Assembly (NCBI GenBank): GCA_025153755.1
Contig: JAOALD010000002.1
Span: forward strand, 62,001 to 126,000
DNA: 64,000 nucleotides
Source of the DNA: SAR92 clade bacterium H921
GTDB lineage: Bacteria; Pseudomonadota; Gammaproteobacteria; Pseudomonadales; Porticoccaceae
Direction: 5' to 3'
Part shown: positions 48,817 through 64,000 of the stretch, in pieces
Layout: every line of letters starts with the position of its first letter
How positions within the stretch are numbered: the first letter of the stretch is position 1
The notes under the pieces: model-generated
Told to the model about the DNA's origin: nothing
Seen by the model: the letters and a program-made list of their open reading frames with translations, nothing else
Database searches by the model: none
Made by a program: the position numbers and the translations under genes

Positions 48817-50394
48817 ATGTCAGATCTACATTCGCAAAAAATTCTTATTCTCGATTTCGGGTCGCAGTACACCCAATTGATCGCTCGCCGTGTGCGGGAG
48901 ATTGGTGTTTTCTCTGAGATTCGTGCCTGGGATATTAGCGAACAGGAAATCCGTGAATTTGATCCCAAGGGTATTATTCTCTCCGGTGGCCCCGAGTCAG
49001 TGACCGGCGGTGCCGATGCTCCTCGAGCACCAGACTGCGTATTTACCATGGGTCTGCCAGTACTGGGTATCTGTTACGGTATGCAGACCATGGCCGGACA
49101 GCTGGGTGGTAAGGTTGATACCTCCGATGTGCGTGAGTTTGGTTATGCACAGGTTAAGGTCGAAACAGAGTCGCGCCTACTGCAGGATATTAAAGATCAT
49201 ATTAACCCCGAAGGTGAGTCACTGCTCGATGTGTGGATGAGCCATGGTGACAAGGTTGTGGCTATGCCCGAAGGCTTTAGCCTGATGGCTTCAACCCCAT
49301 CCTGCCCGATTGCGGGTATGGTCAACGAAGATAAAAAATTCTATGGCATTCAGTTCCACCCTGAGGTGACTCATACATTGCAGGGGCAGCGTATGTTTGA
49401 ACATTTCGCCCTGCAAATCTGTGGCTGTGATGCCTTGTGGACTGCCGCCGCTATTATTGAAGATCAGATTGCTCGTGTTCAGGAACAGGTTGGTGATAGC
49501 CATGTTCTGTTGGGCCTTTCCGGGGGTGTAGATTCCTCCGTGGTTGCTGCGCTATTGCACAAGGCAATTGGTGACCAGCTGACCTGTGTGTTTGTGGACA
49601 ATGGTCTGCTGCGCAAAAATGAAGGCGATATGGTGATGGAGATGTTCGCCAAAAATATGGGCGTAAAAGTCATTCGCGCCAATGCCCAAGACAAGTTCTT
49701 AAATGGCCTGGTCGGCGTTAGTGATCCAGAAGCCAAACGCAAAGTTATCGGTAATACGTTTATTGAGATTTTCGATGAAGAATCCAACAAAATTGATAAT
49801 GTTAACTTTCTGGCTCAGGGCACTATTTATCCCGATGTGATTGAATCAGCCGCGTCTAAAACCGGCAAAGCACATGTCATTAAGTCGCACCACAATGTGG
49901 GCGGCCTACCTGATGATATGGCTCTGGATCTGGTGGAGCCACTGCGTGAACTATTTAAAGATGAAGTGCGCAAGATCGGCGTTGAACTGGGCCTGCCCTA
50001 CGATATGGTTTACCGTCACCCATTTCCCGGCCCCGGCCTTGGGGTACGTATTCTCGGTGAAGTAAAAAAAGAATATGCCGATATCCTGCGCGAAGCCGAT
50101 GCCATCTTTATCGAAGAGCTACACAACTCTGGCTGGTATCATAAAACCAGCCAGGCCTTTGCTGTATTCCTGCCCATTAAGTCTGTGGGTGTGGTAGGTG
50201 ATGCCCGTCGCTACGAATGGGTGATTGCCCTGCGTGCGGTGGAGACCATCGACTTTATGACAGCGCGTTGGGCACATCTTCCTTATGAGCTTTTAGAGAA
50301 AGTGTCCAATCGTATTATTAATGAGATTACTGAAGTTTCTCGCGTTACCTATGATGTTTCCAGCAAGCCGCCGGCGACTATCGAGTGGGAGTAG
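48817..50394 (+). CDS. guaA: GMP synthase (glutamine-hydrolysing)
   Basis: Aminates XMP to GMP. Glutamine amidotransferase domain: [17 protein letters not shown] and nucleophile Cys86 in [11 protein letters not shown]-pyrophosphatase domain: [16 protein letters not shown]-terminal [17 protein letters not shown]. 525 residues. The gene's 3' end is a known integration target for genomic islands in many bacteria. Accessory content starts right after it here. Confidence 0.98.
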
Positions 50395-50685: not shown

Positions 50686-51106
50686 CTTTTAGATGTGTCG
50701 TTTAGGCCTTATAATCTAGATATGAGCACATACAAAAGACATGTATTCCCTCCTGAAGTAATTAGCTTTGGGGTGTGGCTTTACTATCGATTCAACCTAA
50801 GTCATTGGGACATACAGGATTTACTGGCACAACGTGGCATTAATGTGAGTTACGAATCGTTGCGATGCCAGTGTCTCAAGTGTGGCCCAAAGTATCCGAA
50901 ACGGCTGAGAAAAAAGCATCGTGGTTTCGGAGACATATTTTTCGTCGATGAAGTATTCATCAGAATCGGAGGCAAACAACATTATCTCTGGCGTGCTGTT
51001 GATTAAGATGGTGAAGTTGTAGATGTATTACCTCAAACTAGGCGAAACACCCTAGCTGCTATGCGTTTCTTTAAAAGGATATTGAAGTCAGCTGGCGGTT
51101 CTCCGC
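50669..51106 (+). mobile_element. Remnant of an IS6-family insertion sequence
   Basis: The presumed left end begins near GGGTTTTGACAGG, about 53 bases before the transposase ATG, as expected for IS6 elements. Only the first ~127 codons of the transposase survive; the right end and its inverted repeat are missing. The remnant abuts the stop codon of the neighbouring glutathione S-transferase gene. Confidence 0.75.
50722..51105 (+). pseudogene. IS6-family transposase, nonsense mutation and 3' deletion
   Basis: The opening TYKRHVFPPEVISFGVWLYY, the helix-turn-helix region and the first catalytic Asp in FFVDEVFIRI are clearly IS6-family. After LWRAVD a TAA (51004-51006) replaces the Gln codon usual in family members (VDQDGEVVD); the same frame resumes DGEVVDVLPQTRR and MRFFKRILKSAGGSP before similarity ends near 51098. 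The second Asp and the Glu of the DDE triad are lost. Inactive. Confidence 0.85.
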
Positions 51107-52150
51107 TTATTTGTTTATTGTGGAATCAGCCAGATAGAAAGACATGATGCCGCTGTCAGCTATTATGGTGTTGCTGCAGTTGGCGCGCAAAAGTTCATCC
51201 TGTACATGCAGGCGAGCTTTCTCCAGCCGCTTCATCGAGCGTGCGACAAAGGGGCCATCACCGAGATCTAATTCAAAAAACTTGTCTCCTTGGCCAGCAG
51301 CGGCAATACTTGCTCCAGCAAATGCATGATAGTTATTGATTATATAATCGAATAGCGGAAATAAGGTTTCAGGTAATTGGTCATTATCTAGCCAACGAGT
51401 ATTAGAGCGAGCGCCCCCCCAAACTCTTGCGACATAGTCCTCAAATAATGGTAAGTGCTCACCTAGCCAGCTTTTGGGCTCCGGGTCGAGAAGAAAATGT
51501 GCAACGAAGGGACCCACCAGGGCGAAGTCTGCGAGGCAGGCTCGCTCTCCCAGTAAAAAGTTATTCTCTTTAAAATGAGCGACTAAAAGTTCCAATAGAC
51601 GAGCGAAGTCTGCCTTTATGGCATCGCTCTTATCGGGGCCCGCGCCCTGCACTTCGCATGCTGCAGCGCCAAATGTATTGAGCATGACCTCACCAAAGCC
51701 CTCTACCCTAGCTTCTTCATCATCGGTCAACTCAATATCAATATGCTTACTAAGCAGTATATTAGTGCCAAACCGTCTGCCAGTTACAATGACATTCTCT
51801 GGATAACACCATCGAGAGTGCAGGGCGTGTCTTGGATACCAGTGATTGAAAAAGTCTTCCAAGATAAAACAGGTACCTCGCTGTGACGAGCTATCGGGGA
51901 TGACTGGGCACCCATTAAAACGATCATGTAAGAATGGTCCAATGCTGATAGTGTCATTAATCATCCAGCCATCGGGCGTTTTTAAGATTGGTATGAAATT
52001 GGTACCGGCGCGGTTATTAATTGATTCAGTTGTTTCTTGAGACTTTATCTGCCATTGATAAGGAATCTGCTGATAGCGCAGCTGGGCCTCAAGTTTGCGA
52101 GTAAACATACTCATCTCTTGACCAATTAAAGTATAGGTACCTCTGTACAT
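51107..52150 (-). CDS. Glutathione S-transferase family protein
   Basis: 347 residues: a thioredoxin-like N-terminal domain (LEAQLRYQQIPYQW, NFIPILKTPDGWMINDTISI) and an all-alpha C-terminal domain (NNFLLGERACLADFALVGPFVAHF), with an extra ~80-residue C-terminal extension unusual for simple GSTs. AGGGGAAG precedes the ATG. The final codons lie against the IS remnant, so the extreme C-terminus may be a deletion-junction product. Substrate unknown. Confidence 0.82.
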   Translation of the reverse strand: MYRGTYTLIGQEMSMFTRKLEAQLRYQQIPYQWQIKSQETTESINNRAGTNFIPILKTPDGWMINDTISIGPFLHDRFNGCPVIPDSSSQRGTCFILEDFFNHWYPRHALHSRWCYPENVIVTGRRFGTNILLSKHIDIELTDDEEARVEGFGEVMLNTFGAAACEVQGAGPDKSDAIKADFARLLELLVAHFKENNFLLGERACLADFALVGPFVAHFLLDPEPKSWLGEHLPLFEDYVARVWGGARSNTRWLDNDQLPETLFPLFDYIINNYHAFAGASIAAAGQGDKFFELDLGDGPFVARSMKRLEKARLHVQDELLRANCSNTIIADSGIMSFYLADSTINK

Positions 52151-52360: not shown

Positions 52361-54172
52361 ATGAACACTGTTACTCTCAATCAACGTGATATCGATTTTC
52401 TTCTCTATGAATTCCTCGATACAGATGCACTTCTGAGTAGGGCGCGCTACGCTGAGCATTCACGAGAAAGCTTCGATGCCACGATTAATGGCGCCAAGAA
52501 CATTGCCGAAAAATACTATGCGAACCACTACCATAAGGGCGATTCGGAGGAACCTGTCTTTGAGGGTGATTCCGTTACATTGATCCCTGAAATCCAGGCC
52601 GCCTGGGATGCCACTGCAGAATTTGGTTTACTTGGCGCTAGCTACGATTTCGAGGAGGGTGGTGTTCAATTACCTGAAGTTATCTGTAAGGTTTGCGGGA
52701 CCTATATTCAAGCTGCAAATTCAGGAAGCAGTGGTTACTATTTTGTTACTGCGGCGGCGAGCAATGTGATTCGGGCATTTGGCAATGAGCAACAAAAATC
52801 CCTGTTTCTTAGTTCTATGATGGATGGCCGAAGCGCAGGTACCATGGCTCTAACTGAACCCGCTCAGGGTTCAACGCTCGGTGACATTAAAACCTCGGCC
52901 ACACTACAGCCTGACGACAGCTATCTTATCAGAGGGCAGAAGATATATATCAGTAATGGTGATCACCGTCTGTCTGACAATATTGTGCATCTGGTTTTAG
53001 CGCGGATTGAGGGTGCTCCCAAGGGAACACGCGGAATCTCTCTATTTATTGTGCCTAAATTTTTAGTCAATACTGACGGTACTACTGGGGAGAGAAATGA
53101 TGTCGCCCTGGCCGGCCTGTTGCACAAAATGGGCAATCGTAGCGCTACATCCACCGTTTTAAATTTTGGTGAGCAAAAAGGAGCTGTTGGTTATCTTGTA
53201 GGTGAGCCTCATCAAGGGCTGCGTTACATGTTCCAAATGATGAATGACTTAAGAATTGGCGTGGGTTTGGGAGCATCGGCCCTTGCTTACAGAGGTTATT
53301 TACATGCTTTGGATTATGCCCGTGAGAGGCCTCAGGGTCGTCTGCCATCAAATAAAGATCCCCAGACTCCTCAGGTTAAGATTATTGAGCATGCGGACGT
53401 ACGGCGCATGCTGTTGGCGCAAAAATCCTATGCTGAAGGAAGTCTGGCGCTTTGTATGTATGCAGCGTCTTTAGCCGAAGACTGTAAAACTGCAGTTGCA
53501 GCCGATGATCGTGAGCACGCTGCCTTACTGCTGGATTTCCTGACGCCAATCGTGAAAAGCTTTCCGTCCAAATACGGCTGTATAAGTAATGATCTTGCGA
53601 TTCAGGTATTGGGCGGCTCGGGCTATATCCGAGAGTACCCAGTTGAACAGTTATATCGTGACCAGCGGTTAAACCCAATTCATGAGGGCACTGAAGGCAT
53701 TCATGGCTTAGACCTTCTCGGTCGAAAGGTTCTATCTAATAATGGTCAAAGTTATCAATTGTTCATTAGCCTAATCGAGAAGACGCTGGCTGATGCTGCC
53801 GCTATGCCGGAGATTGCACACTTTGTGCCTCCGATAAGAGAAGCTATTGATAGAACTCAGCGAGTAACTGAGTCTCTGCTATTTACAATCAAAGAGGACC
53901 CTGATCTTGGATTGGCAAATGCTACTGTTTATCTTGATATGTTCGGTCAGGTCGTTATTTCTTGGATCTGGTTAAAGCAGGCAGTGATAGCCGCTGGTAA
54001 GCTAAGTTCAAATGGTCCAGAGCAGGCTGATTCTGAGATTAATTTCTATCAGGGTAAGCTTTATGCCGCTCAATATTTTATTAATAGAGAGTTACCGCAG
54101 ACTATTCAGAAAGCCGCATTATTAGGGTTAAATGACAGTACCTGTTTTTATATGTGTGATGAATATTTCTAA
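52361..54172 (+). CDS. Large acyl-CoA dehydrogenase (DmdC-like, ~600 residues)
   Basis: FAD-dependent oxidation of an acyl-CoA. 603 residues, the length class that includes 3-methylmercaptopropionyl-CoA dehydrogenase (DmdC) and related enzymes with a C-terminal extra domain. Seen: TEPAQGSTLGDIKTSA, IRGQKIYISNGDH, the FAD/helix segment VLGGSGYIREYPVEQLYRDQR and catalytic Glu in IHEGTEGIHGLDLLGRK. The usual TYIISGTKIFIT-type active-site loop is present as YLIRGQKIYIS. No other dmd gene is adjacent, so the DMSP role is only possible. Confidence 0.88.
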   Translation: MNTVTLNQRDIDFLLYEFLDTDALLSRARYAEHSRESFDATINGAKNIAEKYYANHYHKGDSEEPVFEGDSVTLIPEIQAAWDATAEFGLLGASYDFEEGGVQLPEVICKVCGTYIQAANSGSSGYYFVTAAASNVIRAFGNEQQKSLFLSSMMDGRSAGTMALTEPAQGSTLGDIKTSATLQPDDSYLIRGQKIYISNGDHRLSDNIVHLVLARIEGAPKGTRGISLFIVPKFLVNTDGTTGERNDVALAGLLHKMGNRSATSTVLNFGEQKGAVGYLVGEPHQGLRYMFQMMNDLRIGVGLGASALAYRGYLHALDYARERPQGRLPSNKDPQTPQVKIIEHADVRRMLLAQKSYAEGSLALCMYAASLAEDCKTAVAADDREHAALLLDFLTPIVKSFPSKYGCISNDLAIQVLGGSGYIREYPVEQLYRDQRLNPIHEGTEGIHGLDLLGRKVLSNNGQSYQLFISLIEKTLADAAAMPEIAHFVPPIREAIDRTQRVTESLLFTIKEDPDLGLANATVYLDMFGQVVISWIWLKQAVIAAGKLSSNGPEQADSEINFYQGKLYAAQYFINRELPQTIQKAALLGLNDSTCFYMCDEYF

Positions 54173-54245: not shown

Positions 54246-54920
54246 ATGGATTTTTCGACATTTGCTCGTTCTCGTAAAAGCACCAGAGGCTTCAAGCCTG
54301 ACCCCATTGCTGTAAGCCTGATCGAAGAGATTATCGATACTGCAAAATGGGCCCCATCGTCCTATAACACTCAGACCTGGCATATCCATGCATTGGCAGG
54401 GGAAGTGCTGGATAAGATTCGTGCCGGAAATACCGAGAATACTCTGGCAGGCAAGCCTCATGTCCGTGATTTCCCTTATAAAGAAGAATACGAAGCAGGG
54501 CATCGTCAAAATCAAATTGATGTTGCGGTGCAGTTATTTGAGGCTATGGGTATTGAGCGAGAAGATAAAGAAAAGCGTATGGATTGGATGTTACGCGGAT
54601 TTCGTCAATTTGATGCACCTGTGTCATTAGTGCTTACCTATGACAAGTATCTTGACCCGGCTGCGATAACCCACTTTGGTCTAGGTTCACTGGCTTACGG
54701 TATTGTGCTTGCTGCATGGGAGCGGGGTATTGGTTGTGTCATTAATGGGCAGGGCATTATGCAGTCAGACGTTGTTCGCAAGTACGCTAACATACCTGAT
54801 GATCAAAATATTATGATCTGTATTGCGATGGGTTATCCCGCGGATGGGTTCCCGGCGAATGATGTTCGATCAACACGGGCAGATAACAGTACATTTGTCA
54901 GTTATCTAGGGTTCGATTGA
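54246..54920 (+). CDS. Nitroreductase-family flavoprotein
   Basis: FMN-dependent oxidoreductase of the NfsB/FRP fold. 224 residues: ARSRKSTRGFKPDP at the N-terminus (FMN phosphate contact Arg), AKWAPSSYNTQTW, LGSLAYGIVLAAWERGIGC and ICIAMGYPAD. AAGGA about six bases before the ATG. Lies 73 bases downstream of the acyl-CoA dehydrogenase gene, same strand, probably the same transcript. Native substrate unknown. Confidence 0.9.
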   Translation: MDFSTFARSRKSTRGFKPDPIAVSLIEEIIDTAKWAPSSYNTQTWHIHALAGEVLDKIRAGNTENTLAGKPHVRDFPYKEEYEAGHRQNQIDVAVQLFEAMGIEREDKEKRMDWMLRGFRQFDAPVSLVLTYDKYLDPAAITHFGLGSLAYGIVLAAWERGIGCVINGQGIMQSDVVRKYANIPDDQNIMICIAMGYPADGFPANDVRSTRADNSTFVSYLGFD

Positions 54921-54978: not shown

Positions 54979-55821
54979 CTAGTCTAAATCGCTGGCATTG
55001 TGACGATCGCGCAACTGTCTTTTCTCTTCCCCCCAGACTCTATTGACTCTCAACCCTCTTTGAACTGCTGGGCGATCTTGAATACTCTCGGCCCAGCGAA
55101 TCACATTTTTATATTGGCCAACATCTAAAAATTCTTGAGCACTATAGAGAGAGCCTGAGACCAACATCCCGTACCAGGGATGGGTTGCCATATCGGCGAT
55201 GGTATAGTCTCTCCCCGATAGAAACTCCCGAGTCGCTAGAGTCTTGTCGAGAACGTCCAGTTGGCGTTTCACTTCCATGGCATAGCGGTTGATAGGGTAT
55301 TCATATTTCTCCGGCGCATAGGCATAGAAATGGCCAAAACCTCCGCCTAAGAAGGCCGCACTGCCCATTTGCCAAAATAACCAGGATAGACACTCCGCTC
55401 GGTCTGCAGCAGCGCTGGGTACGAAGGCGCCGAATTTTTCCGATAGATACAGCAAGATTGCTCCAGACTCAAACACGCGAGTGGGCTCAGGCGTACTGTG
55501 ATCAAGGAGTGCTGGAATTTTAGAATTAGGATTAATCGATACAAAGCCGCTGCCAAATTGATCTCCACTACCAATGTCCACTAACCACGCATCGTACTCC
55601 GCATCCTGATAGCCGAGGGCTAACAGTTCCTCAAACATAACGGTGACCTTGACTCCATTGGGCGTTCCTAGAGAATAGAGTTGATGAGGATGTTTGCCAA
55701 CGGGCAAGTCCTTGTCGTGGGTAGCACCAGCAATCGGCCGATTAGTAGAGGCAAATTTGCCGCCGCTATCTTGGTCCCACTGCCATACTTTTGGGGGAAC
55801 ATAGGTATTTTTGTCAGTCAT
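54979..55821 (-). CDS. yghU: YghU-type glutathione S-transferase / disulfide reductase
   Basis: 280 residues, collinear with E. coli YghU (Nu-class GST with glutathione-disulfide reductase activity): the N-terminal VWQWDQDSGGKFASTNRPIAG, LPVGKHPHQLYSLGTPNGVKV, INPNSKIPAL, FGHFYAYAPEKYEYPINRY and REFLSGRDYTIADMATHPW are all diagnostic. Convergent with the nitroreductase gene. Confidence 0.93.
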   Translation of the reverse strand: MTDKNTYVPPKVWQWDQDSGGKFASTNRPIAGATHDKDLPVGKHPHQLYSLGTPNGVKVTVMFEELLALGYQDAEYDAWLVDIGSGDQFGSGFVSINPNSKIPALLDHSTPEPTRVFESGAILLYLSEKFGAFVPSAAADRAECLSWLFWQMGSAAFLGGGFGHFYAYAPEKYEYPINRYAMEVKRQLDVLDKTLATREFLSGRDYTIADMATHPWYGMLVSGSLYSAQEFLDVGQYKNVIRWAESIQDRPAVQRGLRVNRVWGEEKRQLRDRHNASDLD

Positions 55822-55890: not shown

Positions 55891-57195
55891 TTATGAGGAT
55901 TCTACTATCTGAAGTCTTTCTTGGTCATGTTTATAACGCAGGCCAGCAAATAAAAAACAAGGCATAGCGAGGAACGAAAAGACTGTAAAACCCAACAGTG
56001 TTACAGAATAGGGCTGATCGATCCCATAAGAGGCCATTACATCAATTGACACTCCTGTTATGGTAATACCAATGCCCATACCTATAACATTCATCAATAG
56101 AATTGAAAATGCGATAACTGTTGACCGCACTTCGGGAGGAATTAAACCCTGAATGCTCGCAAAGAATGGTCCGAAGAACGATCCAATCTGAAACATCCCT
56201 AGGAATAAGCCAATCGGTATCCATATCGAGTCACCGGGGGCTAATCGGTACGCTATCATAAAGGGAGAACAGGCCAAAAGAATAAAGAAAAGGAACACAA
56301 GGCGCCCATAGCCTGTTTTCTGGGTAAACCAGTCGCTGCCTATACCACCCACAAAGGTACCAATAATGCCTCCGGATAAACCCATCAATCCAGTTAGTTT
56401 GGCAATTTCATCGCGATCGAAGTTACGTTCTTGAACGAACCAAAGCTGATCAAAATAACCGGCTCCAATAAATACATGCAATAGCATCGCACCTGCCATA
56501 GCCGCCATAAGAGCAGGAGATTTTGGGATTGCAGCCATGGCAATCTTTGCAATTTGACGAATGCTGGGTTTTTCTATTTGTTCGTTGGCATCGATTAAAT
56601 GACGTCTGGGTGTTTCTTTTACAAAAAAGACTATTGCCGCAAGAACAAGGCCAATTCCTCCGAGCAAATAAAAACAGTTGCGCCATCCAATGACAGGGCC
56701 GAGAAACCCTGCTAGCAAAAAGCTACCACCAGCGCCAAGAGGCGCTCCAATATAGTAAAACCCGACTGCAAAGCCCAAGCGCGACTGAGGGAAACGATCC
56801 GCTAAAAGTGACATTGCACTAGGTGATAATATGGATTCTCCGACACCTATAAACATCCGAGGAATGGCCATACTGACAAAATTCCAGGCCAATCCTGAGG
56901 CCGCTGTTAGCGCGCTCCAAAGACTTACCCCAAAACTGATCAGGCGTGTCCGATTGACCGTGTCGGCCAACATGCCCATGTACAAACCTGCAATTGAGTA
57001 GAAAATAAGAAATACCAGGCCCGTAAGTAGTCCGTACTCGGTATTACTGAGCCCTAGATCAGGGACAATGTAATTTGCAAAAGCCGACATCAGATTTCGA
57101 TCAAGCATATTTAATACATTGAGAGAGGTCAGCAGGCATAGAAAGCCCATATCAGATGAAGAAATTGTATCTTTGCTTGGCATATCATTAGTCAT
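55891..57195 (-). CDS. MFS transporter (spinster-like), copy 1
   Basis: Twelve-helix major facilitator, 434 residues from the ATG with AAGG upstream; a TTG six codons earlier is less likely. NVLNMLDRNLMSAFANYIVPDLGLSNTEYGLLTGLVF and MGMLADTVNRTRL form the TM1-TM3 signature. More than half of the residues over the first ~160 positions match the MFS at 62591. Immediately followed upstream by the aldolase gene (21 bases), same strand. Substrate unknown; spinster-type carriers move lipids or organic acids. Confidence 0.9.
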   Translation of the reverse strand: MTNDMPSKDTISSSDMGFLCLLTSLNVLNMLDRNLMSAFANYIVPDLGLSNTEYGLLTGLVFLIFYSIAGLYMGMLADTVNRTRLISFGVSLWSALTAASGLAWNFVSMAIPRMFIGVGESILSPSAMSLLADRFPQSRLGFAVGFYYIGAPLGAGGSFLLAGFLGPVIGWRNCFYLLGGIGLVLAAIVFFVKETPRRHLIDANEQIEKPSIRQIAKIAMAAIPKSPALMAAMAGAMLLHVFIGAGYFDQLWFVQERNFDRDEIAKLTGLMGLSGGIIGTFVGGIGSDWFTQKTGYGRLVFLFFILLACSPFMIAYRLAPGDSIWIPIGLFLGMFQIGSFFGPFFASIQGLIPPEVRSTVIAFSILLMNVIGMGIGITITGVSIDVMASYGIDQPYSVTLLGFTVFSFLAMPCFLFAGLRYKHDQERLQIVESS

Positions 57196-57216
57196 TGTCT
57201 TTGGCCTTATCAACTA

Positions 57217-57951
57217 CTAGTCCTTGTATGAAGGGTCGATCTTGTCAATCAATCGAGTAAATGCAGTAAATTCAAGTTCGCCAGTGGGCTCGCCTATCCC
57301 TTGGATAGCCACTAGCTGTTCGGACTTGGCCAGGATCTCGGGGCCGATGGGAATGCTGGGTCGCCCAGTTGAGTCTGTGGTCACCTGAACCTGACAGGCG
57401 CGCTCGATCGCCCAGAGATTTTGGAAGGCCTCAGGAATACTGCGTCCACCCGTTAACAGGCCATGATTGCGCAGAATCATCAGGCTTTTATTGCCCAGAT
57501 TGGCGACCAGGCGTGACTTCTCGTCGTCCATAACCGTAATACCCTCAAAGTCATGGTAGGCAATCTGGTTATGCATCAGCGCCGAGTAGAAGTTGTCTGC
57601 GCGCAGTCCTTCTTGGGTACAGGCCACAGCCATACCGGCATTGGTGTGTGTGTGGGCGATACATTGGATATCTGGGCGTGCGGCGTGAATGGCGGTATGG
57701 ATAAGAATACCCGCCGGATTTACCGCGTAGTCGGTGTCTTCAACGATACTGCCATCAATATCAACCTTGACCAGATTAGAGGCTTTGACCTCGCTGTAGT
57801 GCAGGCCGAATGGGTTGATCAGGAAGTGCTGTTCGGGCCCTGGTACCTTAACGGTAATATGGTTGTAGATCATTTCGCTCCAACCCATATAGTCGAAGAT
57901 TCTATAGCAGGCTGCGAGCTTTACTCGCAGTTCTTGTTCGGTCTCTGACAT
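57217..57951 (-). CDS. Class II aldolase/adducin family protein
   Basis: 244 residues. Zinc ligands in CIAHTHTNAG and RNHGLLTGG; the N-terminal MGWSEMIYNHITVKVPG and FLINPFGLHYSEV are typical of the family. Members act as sugar-phosphate aldolases, decarboxylases or structural homologues; the particular reaction cannot be read. AAAGGGG precedes the ATG. First gene of a two-gene unit with the MFS. Confidence 0.9.
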   Translation of the reverse strand: MSETEQELRVKLAACYRIFDYMGWSEMIYNHITVKVPGPEQHFLINPFGLHYSEVKASNLVKVDIDGSIVEDTDYAVNPAGILIHTAIHAARPDIQCIAHTHTNAGMAVACTQEGLRADNFYSALMHNQIAYHDFEGITVMDDEKSRLVANLGNKSLMILRNHGLLTGGRSIPEAFQNLWAIERACQVQVTTDSTGRPSIPIGPEILAKSEQLVAIQGIGEPTGELEFTAFTRLIDKIDPSYKD

Positions 57952-58060
57952 TAACTTGCCCCTTTACAAACCTGTTCAGTATTACAATCTGTGTGCCGTT
58001 TTATCGGCCTTCTAGATATTCTCTGTCGTCTCTACTGTTATTTATGCAATAAAATTAGCG

Positions 58061-58471
58061 CTAGATCACCTGTGTACTGGCAATATTTAATTGCCCTTTT
58101 AAGCCAGCAAGTCGGTGGTGATAGGCTTCAAGATATTCGGGAGAGGCAACCATATCGATAAATGATTGCAGCGTTGGATACTTGGCAATAGCCATGACAT
58201 CCCACAGCTCCTCAACTTCTCCGACGACCATACCGTTAAATACACTGGTAAAAACCACATCACCGCCTAATTCCTTAATCAATGATCCAGTCACGGCACC
58301 ATAGATCTGGTAGGCTTCTATGCCCGAGAGGTCGGTTTCACGCCCATCTTCATACTCGGCTTTTTCTCTAAACTTCAGCAGGTTAACCATACAGACCGGG
58401 CCACCATTATCAGCTTTGAGTAAAGCTTCCATTTGCTGATCAGTTTTAGTGGATGCATTTATGTATTCCAT
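58061..58471 (-). CDS. DUF1330 family protein
   Basis: 136 residues with a dimeric alpha-beta barrel ferredoxin-like fold: PVCMVNLLKFREKA, YQIYGAVTGSLIKELGGDVVF and WDVMAIAKYPTLQSFIDMVASPEY are DUF1330 hallmarks. I choose the ATG with GGAG upstream; a TTG four codons earlier is weaker. Family members often sit in catabolic clusters, role unknown. 109 bases upstream of the aldolase start on the same strand. Confidence 0.87.
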   Translation of the reverse strand: MEYINASTKTDQQMEALLKADNGGPVCMVNLLKFREKAEYEDGRETDLSGIEAYQIYGAVTGSLIKELGGDVVFTSVFNGMVVGEVEELWDVMAIAKYPTLQSFIDMVASPEYLEAYHHRLAGLKGQLNIASTQVI

Positions 58472-58587
58472 TTGAATCTCCAAATATTAAGCTGGCACTC
58501 AATGAGCTCCAGCAATAATTTAATAACTAAACTATAAGCAAAAAATATCGCCTGACTTTCTGATAAAAATACCCGGATAACTAGAAT

Positions 58588-58602
58588 CTAAGGGACCCTT
58601 AG
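58588..58602. promoter_or_regulatory. Inverted repeat CTAAGGG-A-CCCTTAG
   Basis: Perfect 7-bp arms around one base, a size suited to a dimeric regulator. It lies 117 bases upstream of the DUF1330 ATG. No regulator gene is present in the window to assign it to. Confidence 0.5.
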
Positions 58603-58883
58603 CTAACATCATGTTTCGTCGAATATTAACTAGTTCTGATCACCTGTCTATTCATAGTTTGGTGTCGAATAATAACTAAAAGCTATGGGATGATAATGTT
58701 CGAAAACATAGATCATCGAGGTAATCTCAAAGTGTTGCTACAAAGTCATCGTTCAAATTAGCATGCTTTTGTAGCGCACTCTGCTTGTACTGATGTGATC
58801 CCTATGCCTGTTTGAATCAGCCACCCTATCCATAGCTCATAATTATTTGAACTTTACTTCTAAGGCATAACAAGACGTTATGC

Positions 58884-58906
58884 ACCCATAGTGCATTCCT
58901 ATGGGT
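58884..58906. promoter_or_regulatory. Inverted repeat ACCCATAG-N7-CTATGGGT
   Basis: Perfect 8-bp arms with a 7-base spacer, 89 bases upstream of the receptor ATG. Operator-like in size and position; a leader hairpin is the alternative. Confidence 0.55.
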
Positions 58907-58995
58907 AACAGTTCAGTGCAATGCCATACTGAAAATCGTCTCTGATCTATAGAGCCCATTTTATCAATAACACAATAATTAAGTTTAAGGAAATT

Positions 58996-61320
58996 ATGAT
59001 GAAATCTATCAATTCTATTGCCTTTACAAAGCTCGTAATCCTATCGACCACTATGGTTAGTTGCTTGAATGTACAGTCTCAAGAAAATGTGTCGGGTGGA
59101 TTTTCAGGTGTGGAGGAAGTGATCGTCACAGCGACCAAGCGAGCTGAAAGTAAGCAAGATATTCCTATTGCGATTTCAGTACTGGGTAGTGAGGAGATCA
59201 CTAATTCGAGTTCCAATAACATCAAAGATATTGTCGCTTTGATTCCTAATATGACATTTGAAGCCGGTAATAACAGCGCTACAGCGGATATCTCAATTAG
59301 AGGAATATACAATCAAGTTCAAGCTGGAGCGATAGGCTATGAATCTGGTTTGAGTGTCTATGTTGATGGTGTGTCCACGGGTAATCAATTTAATGCTAAT
59401 CAAAACCTGGGCGAGATTGAACGGGTTGAGGTTTTGCGAGGTCCTCAAGGAACATTATTTGGCAAAAATTCGATCGCTGGCGCACTTAATATTATCACCA
59501 AGAAACCGACTGATGAGTTTGCGGGGCGTGTCAGTTTTGAGCTAGGCGATCGCTCGTTACAACATTTTCAAGGCAATCTAAATATTCCTCTTAGCGATGA
59601 ACTAAGCTTACGCGTCTCCATGGGCGATCGCAGTAAAGACGGTTTTGTCGATAACATAACGCTGGGCGAGGAAGATTATGCTGGGACCATAGATGAAACC
59701 AGCGGTCGAATTCAGGTGCGATGGACACCCAGTGATAATACGACGATCGATCTTTCCTCTGATTATCTAGAAGTAGATCTTATAGACTACGTGTATGAGT
59801 ACATCGAAGGGTCAGAGCAATATGCAGGTATGCCACCAGCAGGCAGCCCAATGACCGCCATGTCCTTCGATGGAGTAAAATATACCCAATTTAATGGCTT
59901 CGCCAACACCACCAGTAAAGAATTGTCTGGCACCTCGCTATCCATTGAGCATACATTGGGAAATGGTTTCACGATTACCTCGCTTACGGGAATGCGTGAC
60001 GATGAAATGACCTTTCAGGCGGATATAGATGGTCAACCCATGACATTTATGGATGGTGTTTTTCCAATGACGTCTGAGCAAATCACTCAAGAGCTGCGAA
60101 TTGCCTCTCCAGCTGATGGGGCTTATGACTTTGTCGCAGGATTGTATTACTTCGACAGTGAGCAACACTCTTACCAAAATTTGACGATTGGCCAGGCTTT
60201 TGCTGCAGGATTGGATCAGATGTTTCCAGAGCAGATGCGAGGTTTTTTGGGGGGTTATAGCGCCGACCAACATATGCAAGTTGACACCCAAAGTATCGCC
60301 GCCTTTGCTCATGTCAACTACCATATCAGCGATGATCTGACTGCATTTATGGGCCTTCGCTATACCGACGAATCAAAGGCGTACACCGCTTTCCCATGTG
60401 TTTCAGATAGTCCCTTGAATATGCCCTGTAATGTTTTTGCTGGCGCGGGAGTTAGCGAAAGAACTGAAGCAGCAGATAAGTTGACTACATCAGAGCCTAG
60501 CTGGACTGTTGGCCTGCGCCGTAATATTGATGAGGACAGCATGCTGTATGGAAGTGTCTCTCAGGGTATTAAAACTGCAGCATTTAATAGTTTGTACAGC
60601 CAGGATCCGGCGATCAGTCTAGCTGCCGGGACCTTGGTCGCTGATGCAGAGTTTGTGACAAGCTATGAAATTGGCTACAAGTCCAGACTGATGGATGGTC
60701 GAATAGAAATTAATCTAGCCGCTTTTTATATGGACTACGAGGATATGCAAGTTTCTACTACAGATATGACCGCGGCCGTCCCAATTCTGCAGTTATCCAA
60801 TGCTGCGGCAGCGACTAGCCAGGGATTTGAGGTTGAGCTACGTGCTATGCCTACTGAGAATCTACTGATTATTGCTGGTCTGGGTGTAGTTGACGCAACC
60901 TATGATGAGTACACCGGTGTTACTGATAACAAGCTTGCCGCGCCGGTGGATGCTAGCGGCAATACAATTCCTTTGGCAGCTGATATAACCTTTAACGGTG
61001 CGATTCAGTATACGCGTCCTCTCGCTGGAGGCACATTAACCTCTCGACTTGACGGCTCATATATCGATACCAGATACGCCGTCGCTGGTGTGGTTAACTC
61101 CAATGATCAATTGTTGGATAGTCAAATGCTCTTTAACGTAAGGCTAGGTTACCGCCTCAATGATTCGAATACTGCCATTTCTCTATGGGTCAAGAACTTA
61201 ACGGATGATGACAGCGTTACCTACACAGATTATGGTGGTCAAAATTTTGGTGCTCCAGGTATTCATGGAATGTACATTCATCCTAGAAGTTATGGCGCTA
61301 GTGTCGATTATTCTTTTTAA
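58996..61320 (+). CDS. TonB-dependent outer-membrane receptor
   Basis: 774 residues. Signal peptide ~1-30, then a TonB-box-like EEVIVTATKRAESKQDIPIAIS, a plug domain (SVYVDGVSTGNQFNAN, GEIERVEVLRGPQGTLFGKNSIAGALNIITKKP) and a 22-strand-type barrel ending YGASVDYSF with terminal Phe. This subfamily is used for organic substrates as often as for siderophores; no iron genes are nearby. AAGGAA precedes the ATG. Confidence 0.95.
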   Translation: MMKSINSIAFTKLVILSTTMVSCLNVQSQENVSGGFSGVEEVIVTATKRAESKQDIPIAISVLGSEEITNSSSNNIKDIVALIPNMTFEAGNNSATADISIRGIYNQVQAGAIGYESGLSVYVDGVSTGNQFNANQNLGEIERVEVLRGPQGTLFGKNSIAGALNIITKKPTDEFAGRVSFELGDRSLQHFQGNLNIPLSDELSLRVSMGDRSKDGFVDNITLGEEDYAGTIDETSGRIQVRWTPSDNTTIDLSSDYLEVDLIDYVYEYIEGSEQYAGMPPAGSPMTAMSFDGVKYTQFNGFANTTSKELSGTSLSIEHTLGNGFTITSLTGMRDDEMTFQADIDGQPMTFMDGVFPMTSEQITQELRIASPADGAYDFVAGLYYFDSEQHSYQNLTIGQAFAAGLDQMFPEQMRGFLGGYSADQHMQVDTQSIAAFAHVNYHISDDLTAFMGLRYTDESKAYTAFPCVSDSPLNMPCNVFAGAGVSERTEAADKLTTSEPSWTVGLRRNIDEDSMLYGSVSQGIKTAAFNSLYSQDPAISLAAGTLVADAEFVTSYEIGYKSRLMDGRIEINLAAFYMDYEDMQVSTTDMTAAVPILQLSNAAAATSQGFEVELRAMPTENLLIIAGLGVVDATYDEYTGVTDNKLAAPVDASGNTIPLAADITFNGAIQYTRPLAGGTLTSRLDGSYIDTRYAVAGVVNSNDQLLDSQMLFNVRLGYRLNDSNTAISLWVKNLTDDDSVTYTDYGGQNFGAPGIHGMYIHPRSYGASVDYSF

Positions 61321-61355
61321 CACATAAATTTAGTCTTTGATAAACATTGGATAAT

Positions 61356-61384
61356 AAAAAGCTGAGTCAATAGCCCAGCTTTTT
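61356..61384 (+). terminator. Intrinsic terminator after the receptor gene
   Basis: AAAAAGCTG and CAGCTTTTT form a 9-bp stem across an 11-base loop with a terminal T run, 35 bases after the receptor stop. The next gene likely has its own start or depends on read-through. Confidence 0.85.
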
Positions 61385-61418
61385 ATTTGACATTAGGATC
61401 AAAAAAGGAGGTAAACCA

Positions 61419-62594
61419 ATGGAGGACGTTTCAGTTGTTACGTCTGCCACAGCGGCTACAAGCTCGTCGGAACATGCAGCCGCGATGGTTCCATATATTG
61501 CTGAGGGCACAAAACGCGCGGCTGCAGCCGGTAATCGTGGTCCGTTGCAGTTGGATAACAGTGGCAAACTTCACCCTGATATACTGAATGCGTATAACCA
61601 AAAAGGGTTCTATATCTTTGAGGGCGTTATCGGGGCAGAGGAGTTGGACAGTCTGCGTGCCGACGTCACCAATATGATCGACCGCGCCCCGGTGCAGCCC
61701 GGAGCGAAGGTAGATGCCAAAGGCCGTACGGCAATGGGGCTGGATCATGCTGCCGAGCCCTACTCCTTTATCAAACCCCTGTCGGACCCCTTTGGTGGCA
61801 CGGGACTATTGAATGGCCGCCATCCGGTCCAGATGATACAGCCCGAGCCCGAAGACGATGTTCCCAATGACGTTCTTTTTTTATTGCGGGATATATGCCA
61901 GGCCATGCCGGCCTGTCTGCGCCTGTATGGACATCCACAGCTATTGGGCATTGCCGAGGCTGTTAATGGCTCCGATTTTGTCCCCTACACTGAAGTCATT
62001 TTCGTCAAACAGGCGGGCCGAGGCGGCGCGGTATCCTGGCATCAGGACGGCGTAACCCATTGGCAGTCACCCAACTGGGACCTGGGTATCCACGGTTTTA
62101 ATTTTCAAGTGCAGCTCTATGATACAACCCCTGCAAATGGGTTATGGATCGTGCCTGGTAGTCATAAGCTGGGACATATCGATATCAAAAAAAGGGTAGA
62201 GGACAATGGAGGCGAGCGATTACCGGACGCGATTCCTCTAATCTGTGCACCGGGTGATGTGACCATCGTCAATAGACAGATGCTCCACGGCTCCTTCGCC
62301 AATACCTCGGTGGATCAGCGTATGTCTATTACCATCGGCTTTCACCGTCGAGCCTCAGTGCTGGGTCAGCGCAGCGCCCTGGCTATAGAAGGGGGCGATA
62401 TTTATGACGAGCAGCGCATATTTGAGCGATCAGCGGTAATTGCCGTGGCCATCGATGCGCGGGCTCAATATTTTCCCAATGAAACTCGCTATTGCTATGA
62501 ACCCTTTGTCGGGTTGGAAGAGGACTACCGCTGGAATGACGATACGTTTGAGAGGGTGATACGAAACTACAGCAGTAGGGATTTAGCAATTTGA
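61419..62594 (+). CDS. Phytanoyl-CoA dioxygenase (PhyH) family protein
   Basis: Fe(II)/2-oxoglutarate oxygenase of 391 residues. Iron ligands: HxD in VSWHQDGVTHW and the distal His in QMLHGSFANTS; Arg for 2-oxoglutarate follows in VDQRMSITIG. The first ~45 residues are low-complexity and Ala/Ser-rich. A strong AAGGAGGT stands six bases from the ATG. Substrate unknown; hydroxylation of an imported organic compound or its CoA ester is the inference. Confidence 0.9.
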   Translation: MEDVSVVTSATAATSSSEHAAAMVPYIAEGTKRAAAAGNRGPLQLDNSGKLHPDILNAYNQKGFYIFEGVIGAEELDSLRADVTNMIDRAPVQPGAKVDAKGRTAMGLDHAAEPYSFIKPLSDPFGGTGLLNGRHPVQMIQPEPEDDVPNDVLFLLRDICQAMPACLRLYGHPQLLGIAEAVNGSDFVPYTEVIFVKQAGRGGAVSWHQDGVTHWQSPNWDLGIHGFNFQVQLYDTTPANGLWIVPGSHKLGHIDIKKRVEDNGGERLPDAIPLICAPGDVTIVNRQMLHGSFANTSVDQRMSITIGFHRRASVLGQRSALAIEGGDIYDEQRIFERSAVIAVAIDARAQYFPNETRYCYEPFVGLEEDYRWNDDTFERVIRNYSSRDLAI

Positions 62595-63892
62595 CTGCGC
62601 AAGAGACAGACGCCACATCCCGAGACTATGGTTTTTTAATATTTTTGACCCTGATCAATGTATTAAATATCGTCGATCGGCAATTAATTGCCAGCTTGGC
62701 TAACTGGATAAAGCCTGAGTTAGGCCTGAGTAATACTCAATTTGGACTTTTAACTGGGCTCGTTTTCCTGTTCTTTTATGCGGTCGCCGGGGTCTTTATG
62801 GGTATTTTGGCAGATCGGGTTGACCGAAATCGTTTGATTGCGTTTGGTTTAGTGGTGTGGAGTGCCCTCACAGCCATATCTGGTATGGCAAAAGGGTTCC
62901 TCAGTCTCGCCATCCCTAGACTATTTATCGGTATTGGCGAATCAATTATGACGCCAACTGCTATGTCGATACTCTCGGACCGGTTTCCGTCAAAAAATCT
63001 CGGTTTTGCGGCTGGCTTTTACTACATGTCAGCGCCCCTAGGTGTGTCATTGAGTTTATTGATTGCGGCTTATCTTGAGCCCTTGATAGGTTGGCGTGGT
63101 TGTTTTTACGCACTCGGTGCACTGGGCATCCTGTTCTGCATCATTATGGTGTTCTTGAAAGAGACGCCTCGTAAGTCACAAATGAAAAGGCAGGGAAATC
63201 CAGTTAAGTCGCCAGAACTTCCGAGTATTAAACAAATGCTGGTCACGACCTGGAATGCTTTTGCTTGCTCTCCCGCTTTAAAGTTAACGGTGTTCGGCGC
63301 AGTGACTTTTCATGTTTTTTTGGGCGCTGCGATGTTTGAACAGATCTGGTTTGTCGAGGAGCGAGGTTTCGACCCCAATGATATCGCAGAGATAACCGGT
63401 TGGATGGCATTGGTTGCAGGCGTTGCAGGTAACCTTGCAGGTGGTATTGGAAGTGACTATTTTCTGCACAAGACAGGTATCGGTCGGCCGATGTTTATGT
63501 TCTGGATTACGCTGTTCATTATGCCGGTGATGCTTGCCTACAGATTTGTCGACCCTGCATCACCTCTTTTTATGGTTTGCATGTTCCTGGCTCTATTTCA
63601 GTATGGCTGCCTTTTTGGTCCTGTCTTTGGCACAGTTCAGGAGCTGGTTCCGCCTCAGATTCGGGGGACTGTCACCGCTGTTGTCCTTATGATGGTTAGT
63701 GTTTTAGGTATCGGTTTTGGCGTTACTTTTACCGGAGTCTTGGTCGACTGGTTACTCGCCAATAATATTGACAGTCCCTACACCAAAAGCCTGCTGTTCT
63801 GTACCGCAATCTCATTTTTAACCATTCCATTATTTTTCTTCGCTGGAAGGTATTTTGATCGTGATCGGCAGGCACTTAAGGAATGGGTTTGA
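62591..63892 (+). CDS. MFS transporter (spinster-like), copy 2
   Basis: 433 residues, twelve helices. TTG start in the dioxygenase stop (TTGA), so it is coupled to it. INVLNIVDRQLIASLANWI, GLSNTQFGLLTGLVF and IPRLFIGIGESIMTPTAMSIL mirror the copy at 55891 almost position by position, showing recent shared ancestry. Presumed inner-membrane step for the same or a related substrate. Confidence 0.9.
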   Translation: MTAQETDATSRDYGFLIFLTLINVLNIVDRQLIASLANWIKPELGLSNTQFGLLTGLVFLFFYAVAGVFMGILADRVDRNRLIAFGLVVWSALTAISGMAKGFLSLAIPRLFIGIGESIMTPTAMSILSDRFPSKNLGFAAGFYYMSAPLGVSLSLLIAAYLEPLIGWRGCFYALGALGILFCIIMVFLKETPRKSQMKRQGNPVKSPELPSIKQMLVTTWNAFACSPALKLTVFGAVTFHVFLGAAMFEQIWFVEERGFDPNDIAEITGWMALVAGVAGNLAGGIGSDYFLHKTGIGRPMFMFWITLFIMPVMLAYRFVDPASPLFMVCMFLALFQYGCLFGPVFGTVQELVPPQIRGTVTAVVLMMVSVLGIGFGVTFTGVLVDWLLANNIDSPYTKSLLFCTAISFLTIPLFFFAGRYFDRDRQALKEWV

Positions 63893-63938
63893 GTACTTCC
63901 ATATTAATACCTTATTTTGTTCTCAAGAGATTTGCATT

Positions 63939-64000
63939 ATGACCCGCCCCGTTCTAGTGATGATGAGGCCTTTACCCTTGCCTTTACTGTGGGCGAATGG
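63939..64000 (+). CDS. Start of an unidentified gene cut by the window end
   Basis: ATG opens a frame (MTRPVLVMMRPLPLPLLWAN...) that runs to the window edge; AAGAGA lies about ten bases upstream. It is 46 bases after the MFS stop on the same strand, so it could be the next gene of the cluster. Twenty residues are too few to name it. Confidence 0.45.
   Translation, partial: MTRPVLVMMRPLPLPLLWAN

Follow-up and report, generated by a model that had tools for sequence, protein, structure and literature searches.

Catabolic loci in which a TonB-dependent receptor stands together with esterases are known as a general kind from marine gammaproteobacteria. A gene block of this kind begins in the window analysed here, a stretch of 64,000 nucleotides from SAR92 clade bacterium H921 (contig JAOALD010000002.1, positions 62,001 to 126,000; contig of 614 kb, genome of 2.57 Mb), and continues past its right-hand edge; coordinates above 64000 extend the numbering of the window. 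Six genes at the end of the window had been described in the initial annotation as an uptake-and-oxidation cluster: an MFS carrier (MFS1), a class II aldolase family protein and a DUF1330 protein on the minus strand, and a TonB-dependent receptor (TBDT1), a PhyH-type oxygenase (PHYH) and a second carrier (MFS2) on the plus strand. A third carrier (MFS3) and the receptor TBDT2 follow further along the block. The explanation that fits best as a whole, and that we hold to be probable, is that the six genes form the guaA-proximal end of a catabolic block passed between species, with a putative uptake-oxidation route.

Like the receptor-plus-esterase loci, the block combines a TonB receptor, esterases and acyl-CoA enzymes in one locus. 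It differs from them by two divergently transcribed MFS paralogues with a PhyH oxygenase, and by the presence of three receptors and three MFS genes inside about 30 kb. It is a known kind of catabolic gene block with a new make-up.

A second described system is the guaA-targeting genomic island of the GIsul2 type. The sequence GAGTGGGA is given as the core of guaA-inserting islands in the available text of PMC9376610. The block likewise begins just after guaA with this core, and the content of the guaA site varies in most relatives examined, one of which carries an integrase there. Unlike these islands, the block has neither an integrase nor a duplicated attachment (att) site that could be found, and its cargo among the genes profiled is catabolic. 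A third system is represented by the UGSC-containing selenoproteins, which the accessible sections of PMC2398784 and PMC13188914 describe from ocean metagenomes, with function unknown. The block encodes such a protein, with a GH-U-GSC motif and an in-frame UGA, and has selA, selB and tRNA-Sec on the same DNA. Its UGSC gene differs in its setting, an exchanged catabolic block with a fixed partner gene and with MFS, esterase, glutathione S-transferase (GST) and receptor genes; a catabolic or exchanged context is absent from those sections of the two papers. Among the open-licence papers that the literature search listed, none describes the cluster or its selenoprotein link.

SAR92 is presented in the accessible part of PMC10746254 as an abundant coastal group, and strain H231, one of the carriers of the block, as an isolate kept in culture whose genome is public, so that induction tests are feasible. 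If a catabolic block passes between species that otherwise share about 70-80% nucleotide identity, the substrate range can jump between species in this clade. Inter-species exchange and the selenoprotein link lift the block above an ordinary catabolic locus.

The block next to guaA

The block spans 51.1 to about 115.7 kb, well past the edge of the window. In strain H231 (G019), counterparts exist for 42 of the 45 open reading frames (ORFs) chosen in the interval 51.1-115 kb, with a median nucleotide identity of 94.2% and a median synonymous divergence (dS) of 0.20 (range 0.00-0.58). The dS values were computed after Nei-Gojobori with our own script; genes with a coverage below 70% were excluded, and the floor of amino acid identity was 85% for block genes and 60% for baseline genes. 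By contrast, 19 baseline genes from two other chromosomal regions share 68.6-81.0% nucleotide identity between the two strains and have dS values from 1.20 to saturated. The neighbouring guaA (dS 0.71) and guaB (dS 1.37) lie outside the block, and to the right of 115.7 kb the matches fall to 70-73%, some of them perhaps to paralogues. Because dS in the block is far below that of genes elsewhere, the cluster can be taken to have moved horizontally, and an exchange of the block between SAR92-clade species is very probable. In the third block-bearing genome, Porticoccaceae bacterium CPC310 (G048), close sharing extends from 51.1 to about 86.5 kb (the left ~35 kb) and covers 25 genes with a median dS of 0.25, against a baseline of four genes only, all saturated. 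This set leaves out two split or cut genes and TBDT2, which at 58% amino acid identity is too divergent for it.

Within the block, PHYH (dS 0.05), MFS2 (dS 0.00, with 433 of 433 codons identical) and a D-2-hydroxyacid dehydrogenase gene (dS 0.02) are especially close between H921 and H231, and identity over 61.5-64.9 kb is 95-100% in 200-bp steps. This suggests that the trio was exchanged a second time and more recently. TBDT1, a carboxylesterase gene and a 118-amino-acid frame are the three ORFs without a counterpart in H231. The first two flank the patch of the trio; of TBDT1, H231 retains only a 50-bp remnant together with the control region. The receptor and the envelope esterase appear to have been lost jointly in this strain, with the inner-membrane and cytoplasmic steps kept. 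Modules of the block also move separately, as seen in genome G028, where counterparts of MFS3, a receptor, a TetR gene and the synthetase lie at 91-96% identity on a 4.3-kb contig and the best PHYH match reaches 47%.

The core GAGTGGGA is located at 50383..50390 on the plus strand, at the 3' end of guaA, and marks the left flank of the exchanged block. Between guaA and the first block gene lies a decayed transposase-like ORF (DDE_Tnp_IS240; 50695..51003, plus strand), whose Pfam score of 26.3 bits is just below the cut-off of 27. The guaA flanks of ten relatives were fetched, nine of which are informative (the contig of G033 ends there); the block is absent from all nine, and the content is mostly different. 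In G023 (L225), an integrase follows guaA, and partial second copies of guaA are present in G023 and G029 (L232). These are signs of repeated insertion at the guaA site in the genus. Spread by plasmid was considered and rejected, as a search with MFS2 at E 1e-60 gave no match on plasmids and PHYH gives only weak, partial matches to seven plasmid records.

Among 114 related genomes, 50 of them from the same genus (G000-G049, G000 being that of H921), copies of PHYH, the DUF1330 gene, the aldolase gene and MFS2 with more than 90% identity occur only in H921, H231 and CPC310. Those of TBDT1 occur only in H921 and CPC310, with up to nine receptor candidates scored in each genome among the matches listed. 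MFS1 had no search of its own, and its two close copies are known by synteny from the same genomes, which makes three carriers of the block among the 50. The six genes belong together, since they stand in the same order in three SAR92-clade species (five of them in one) inside an exchanged block. To this extent the initial annotation holds. The check that it had proposed gives a mixed outcome: within the genus the genes do travel together, and beyond the genus they are scattered. It is the larger block, not a six-gene cluster, that forms the unit, and the earlier reading, with exactly six proteins acting on one compound, was too narrow. Likewise, the symmetrical layout holds as a divergent arrangement and fails as a closed unit, because the plus-strand arm continues past the window edge.

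Genome G902, from another family, contains what by sequence is a divergent version of the block, MFS2 included. There, MFS2 (68% identical) and MFS3 adjoin counterparts of the short-chain dehydrogenase (SDR), GST, esterase, receptor and regulator genes, in the order UGSC, partner, TetR, receptor, esterase, GST, SDR, MFS3, MFS2. A haloalkane-dehalogenase-like gene (55%) and a TBDT2 relative (40%) lie 13-18 kb away, and no relative of PHYH, the aldolase or DUF1330 occurs in the 38 kb read.

On the left of the six genes, the block opens with a GST-like protein (51107..52150, minus strand; GST_C; amino acid identity 94% in H231 and 91% in CPC310). An acyl-CoA dehydrogenase family protein (52361..54172, plus strand) and a nitroreductase family protein (54246..54920, plus strand) follow, and then a glutathione-dependent disulfide-bond oxidoreductase (54979..55821, minus strand; PRK11752 above cut-off). 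On the right, the first part of the D-2-hydroxyacid dehydrogenase ORF lies at 63855..64000 (plus strand; start codon provisional), and the ORF runs on to 64883 beyond the window. It is followed by a type-B carboxylesterase with a lipobox-like LLSAC at the N-terminus, a hormone-sensitive-lipase type esterase with a signal-like N-terminus (both termini read by eye), a haloalkane-dehalogenase-subfamily hydrolase, a short-chain dehydrogenase and TBDT2. Next come a LysR regulator, a hydratase-like protein, an SDR, a DsbA-like protein, an acyl-CoA synthetase, a TetR regulator and MFS3, which belongs to the same family as MFS1 and MFS2, and after these the third receptor, a second esterase, a 362-amino-acid protein without a Pfam or NCBIfam match, a second GST (GST370), an SDR (SDR3), a CaiB-type CoA-transferase and a biotin carboxylase-carboxyltransferase. 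The hydrolase at L005:3859-4905 falls in the haloalkane dehalogenase subfamily with 371.6 bits against a cut-off of 265.

The six genes and their control region

All six genes are borne out on the strands and at the positions initially given. The minus-strand arm consists of the Spinster-like carrier MFS1 (55891..57213; MFS_1), the class II aldolase family protein (57217..57951; NCBIfam PRK07044, 344.9 bits, cut-off 207) and the DUF1330 protein (58061..58483; Pfam 24.5 bits, cut-off 23). The aldolase gene is an extra copy of a gene present in 57 of the 114 genomes (E 1e-60), and the second copy of H921, 84% identical, lies on a different contig. The plus-strand arm consists of TBDT1 (58996..61320), PHYH (61419..62594; Pfam 70.4 bits, cut-off 22) and the Spinster-like carrier MFS2 (62591..63892; MFS_1, 164 bits). 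For TBDT1, identity as a siderophore receptor was rejected, as it scores 161 bits with TIGR01783 against a cut-off of 223.5. The TTG start of MFS2 overlaps the stop codon of PHYH by four bases, which is consistent with the translational coupling noticed earlier. The statement that no member names the substrate still stands.

The control region of about 0.5 kb between the arms measures 512 bp (58484-58995). It contains a 44-nt stretch (58653..58696), a candidate regulatory element that is identical in the three species, and a perfect inverted repeat, ACCCATAG-N7-CTATGGGT (58884..58906), a candidate operator. The arms of the repeat are identical in the three species, and its spacer differs by one base in H231. 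Both motifs are retained in H231, the strain without the receptor. Further copies were searched for over 121 kb: the 44-nt stretch has none at up to 14 mismatches, and the inverted repeat has no second site with fewer than four mismatches. Three sites with four mismatches were found, where shuffled sequences gave two to eight. An operator shared across the block was rejected for this lack of close further copies of either motif. Scans of the control region for sigma-70 promoters and terminators gave about as many sites as shuffled sequences.

The oxygenase PHYH keeps the motif H208-x-D210...H290 intact. These three residues are invariant in 37 of 37 aligned PHYH sequences, and R301 is conserved in at least 90% of them; from family knowledge, we take the triad to be the iron ligands and R301 the distal arginine. 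A structure model with a pLDDT of 92.2 shows the double-stranded beta-helix fold, the 50 best PDB matches listed being all of this oxygenase type by title. The best solved relative by both sequence and fold is EvdO1, with about 19% identity and a TM-score of 0.60 by query length. PHYH thus resembles the PhyH superfamily and EvdO1 in its Pfam match above cut-off, its iron-binding triad and its fold, and differs from EvdO1 in sequence and in its catabolic neighbours. At 19% identity, EvdO1 names no substrate for PHYH.

The carriers MFS1 and MFS2 had been called near-identical, which has to be withdrawn. They agree in 96 of 159 aligned positions at the N-terminus, so that the match in more than half of the first ~160 residues is real, yet the identity over 430 positions is just 50% and the two fall on separate branches of the tree. 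A recent duplication was rejected on the same two results. In this tree, whose bootstrap is not settled and whose long branches allow only the broad pattern to be used, MFS2 nests with three sequences linked to glycolate oxidase (glc) genes (98/98), MFS3 pairs with the G902 copy (97/97), and MFS1 stands apart on a long branch. MFS2 is of the Spinster type, with an MFS_1 domain and with best matches among solved structures to 6e8j (105 bits), which we take to be a bacterial Spinster protein, SPNS1 (55 bits) and SPNS2 (about 50 bits). Relatives in this order differ from these Spinster proteins by their neighbours, namely glycolate oxidase, AtuA-type, and esterase and receptor genes.

These neighbourhoods were compared in several groups. 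Another family of the same order (f40) has MFS relatives at E 1e-115 in 27 of its 61 genomes, at 28 places, of which 27, in 26 loci, were examined (G866 was left out). At least two of glcD, glcE and glcF occur within 6.5 kb of the carrier gene in ten of the 26 loci (L151, L181, L182, L191, L194, L197-L200 and L204); the carrier adjoins glcF in eight of these, and one or two genes lie between them in the other two. In one glc locus checked by NCBIfam, GlcE and GlcF are above cut-off and GlcD is below, the scores given for the GlcD check being 768.5 of 897 and 518.3 of 567.9. A role of the f40 carrier beside glcDEF in glycolate transport is possible. Among distant carriers of the SAR92 genus, five of five fetched loci (L207:9448-17214 and L208-L211) show an AtuA-type gene and acyl-CoA carboxylase- and acyl-CoA dehydrogenase-like genes beside the carrier, the AtuA identity having been checked in one of the five. 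In G077, the only one of six genomes of its family with a match to MFS2, the carrier follows a different PhyH protein and precedes an unannotated gene, a LysR gene and malate synthase G. Carriers of this family also recur beside receptor, esterase and oxidative genes in other genomes. The glc, AtuA-type and malate synthase G genes around these relatives hint at carboxylic acids, 2-hydroxy acids among them, as the cargo. Searches with MFS2 returned two of 369 genomes across the class (E 1e-120) and two of 398 across the phylum (E 1e-115), its own genome included both times and at most four candidates per genome scored among the matches listed; this only suggests that MFS2 is rare elsewhere.

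Proposed route and rival explanations

The composition of the block allows a tentative route to be drawn, in which uptake, ester cleavage and oxidation of an acid follow one another and which we regard as a fair way short of probable. An esterified or otherwise bulky organic compound would cross the outer membrane through a TonB receptor, and the envelope esterases, that is, the carboxylesterase and the hormone-sensitive-lipase type enzyme, would release an organic acid from it. The MFS carriers would move the acid across the inner membrane, where PHYH might hydroxylate it with Fe(II), 2-oxoglutarate and oxygen. The hydroxyl group could then be oxidised by the D-2-hydroxyacid dehydrogenase and the short-chain dehydrogenases, and the carbon chain would be broken by the aldolase and the CoA enzymes further along the block.

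Several results weigh against an exchanged catabolic block with such a route. A single scan of genome contigs with six peptide patterns yielded 45 PHYH loci, two of which are the block itself. Seven of the loci had been missed by earlier ORF picking, and the neighbours were therefore recounted on all stop-to-stop frames of at least 100 amino acids, in flanks of up to 10 kb per side, some of them much shorter. No relative of MFS1 or MFS2, of the receptor or of DUF1330 occurs in the flanks of the 43 loci from other lineages; an aldolase relative is present in one of them, and in the closest (L039, 73%) a different kind of MFS gene lies in the neighbourhood. The D-2-hydroxyacid dehydrogenase belongs to a common family, and a relative of the block's copy is found in two of the 43 loci, too few for the two genes to be used as a recurrent pair. 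A further 18 loci with PHYH-like genes (L084-L101), most of them paralogues from SAR92 with 45-50% identity, are devoid of MFS1, MFS2, aldolase and DUF1330 relatives, with partial receptor matches in two of them. TBDT1 relatives (38%) in G001 and in H231 adjoin other genes. The same dispersal is seen in G108, where relatives of PHYH, MFS, DUF1330 and the aldolase lie on four contigs, one of them just 5 kb long. As for the insertion, the 20- to 36-base guaA end is present solely as its native copy in 121 kb (the 8-base core alone was not searched), and no integrase occurs among the selected block genes that were profiled. For want of a second guaA end, we speak of an exchanged block at a known hotspot and not of an integrase-type island. 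Nine genes in the right half of the block have a background divergence in CPC310 (dS 0.70-1.94), so that only the left part represents a recent exchange in that genome. Finally, 16 of the 26 f40 carrier loci are not linked to glc genes, and animal Spinster proteins carry lipids, so that a hydrophobic substrate fits as well as a small acid.

The rival readings have to be set against the same evidence. That the block is native and merely unusually conserved would agree with its position beside guaA in both H921 and H231 and with its right half in CPC310 being as divergent as other genes. It is nevertheless highly improbable, given the little-changed synonymous sites of the 42 genes beside 19 genes at or near saturation elsewhere, the dS of 0.00 for MFS2, the absence of the block from guaA in nine out of nine informative relatives, and the absence of five of the six genes, at more than 90% identity, from the other 111 of 114 genomes. 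The earlier view of the six genes as a self-contained uptake-and-oxidation system for one compound draws on the divergent order, kept in H921, CPC310 and, minus the receptor, H231, and on the inverted repeat and the 44-nt stretch, kept in all three. Against it stand the much longer conserved block on both sides, the loss of the receptor from H231, which makes it dispensable, the scatter of the genes outside the genus, and G902, in which MFS2 goes with the downstream module and the 38 kb read has no relative of PHYH, the aldolase or DUF1330. We consider this view improbable.

An equally small share of our confidence goes to a reading in which PHYH and its carrier handle or detoxify a natural product instead of feeding the cell. 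EvdO1, its nearest solved relative by sequence and fold, presumably acts in orthosomycin chemistry as an antibiotic-modifying enzyme; GST, nitroreductase and glutathione oxidoreductase genes adjoin the cluster; and many PHYH relatives come from metagenomes of Acidobacteria and Alphaproteobacteria, several of them, we assume, sponge-associated. The likeness to EvdO1 is nevertheless distant in both sequence and fold, and acyl-CoA synthetase, CoA-transferase, carboxylase and acyl-CoA dehydrogenase genes in the block are typical of catabolism. Isoprene degradation has a gene order of GST, SDR and CoA-transferase, and GST370, SDR3 and CaiB are consecutive in the block, so that its glutathione and CoA genes could form an isoprene-like epoxide pathway with the PHYH cluster as an accessory. 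The first GST matches the isoprene-epoxide GST IsoI weakly, at 21.5 bits against a cut-off of 300, on which ground an isoprene-type pathway was rejected. GST370 has no NCBIfam match, and the genes profiled include no recognisable multicomponent monooxygenase, which leaves this reading decidedly unlikely. The exchanged catabolic block thus stays the preferred explanation of the six genes.

The same genome has a paralogue of PHYH (48%) in the neighbourhood of genes for an alkaline ceramidase, an HMG-CoA reductase and a DUF3604 protein (L085:5486-16295).

A UGSC selenoprotein frame in the block

The UGSC selenoprotein frame of the block comprises 178 codons with an in-frame UGA in the motif GH-U-GSC (L102:4210-4743, corresponding to 85210-85743 in window coordinates) and stands directly before the gene of the 362-amino-acid protein. 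The genes selA, selB and tRNA-Sec follow in a row on the same block (L102:13822-17263), the tRNA-Sec scoring 69.3 bits against a cut-off of 47. The protein is conserved on both sides of the UGA, with 94-96% identity in H231 and CPC310, 66% in G902 and 49% in G861. With the motif, coding sequence on either side of the UGA and the machinery for selenocysteine at hand, the frame fits the UGSC-containing selenoproteins. The hairpin after the UGA, a candidate for a bacterial SECIS element, has the same apical form in five sequences, with z-scores of -0.05 to -1.24 against shuffles, which is not significant. The model of the 362-amino-acid partner has a pLDDT of 68.3, and its fold matches nothing in the PDB at E 0.001 or better.

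A profile scan of the loci revealed eight UGSC frames, in H921, H231, CPC310, G902 (two), G861, G038 and an Acidimicrobiaceae genome (L075). All eight have the UGA, and all eight adjoin a relative of the 362-amino-acid protein. The block may accordingly be viewed as a selenium-dependent catabolic pathway, with the six genes as its entry arm and the UGSC protein with its partner as a core enzyme, moved between marine species together with selA, selB and tRNA-Sec; we rate this as rather doubtful. In its favour, the pair lies near carriers of this MFS clade in G902 and in G861, where an MFS gene precedes the UGSC gene and its partner. In the Acidimicrobiaceae genome, a PHYH relative (57%) stands within 4 kb of the pair, at a distance of about 2.5 kb from the partner gene. 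Against it, the UGSC pair occurs in only one of the 43 other PHYH loci and two of the 26 f40 carrier loci. In CPC310, the divergence of selA (dS 1.70) and selB (dS 1.94) lies at the background level, which implies no recent move with the cluster; they need not travel together. If the selenium-dependent pathway is real, one of the most abundant selenoproteins of the sea, so far without a known function, would be placed in a pathway. The presence of a selenoprotein and its synthesis genes on the same block offers a way to learn the role of that protein.

The second UGSC and partner pair of G902 (L238:5789-8254) lies kilobases from the haloalkane-dehalogenase-like gene and a TonB receptor. In G038 (L228:10107-16353), a different block after guaA carries tRNA-Sec, selB, selA, a UGSC frame and a relative of the 362-amino-acid protein.

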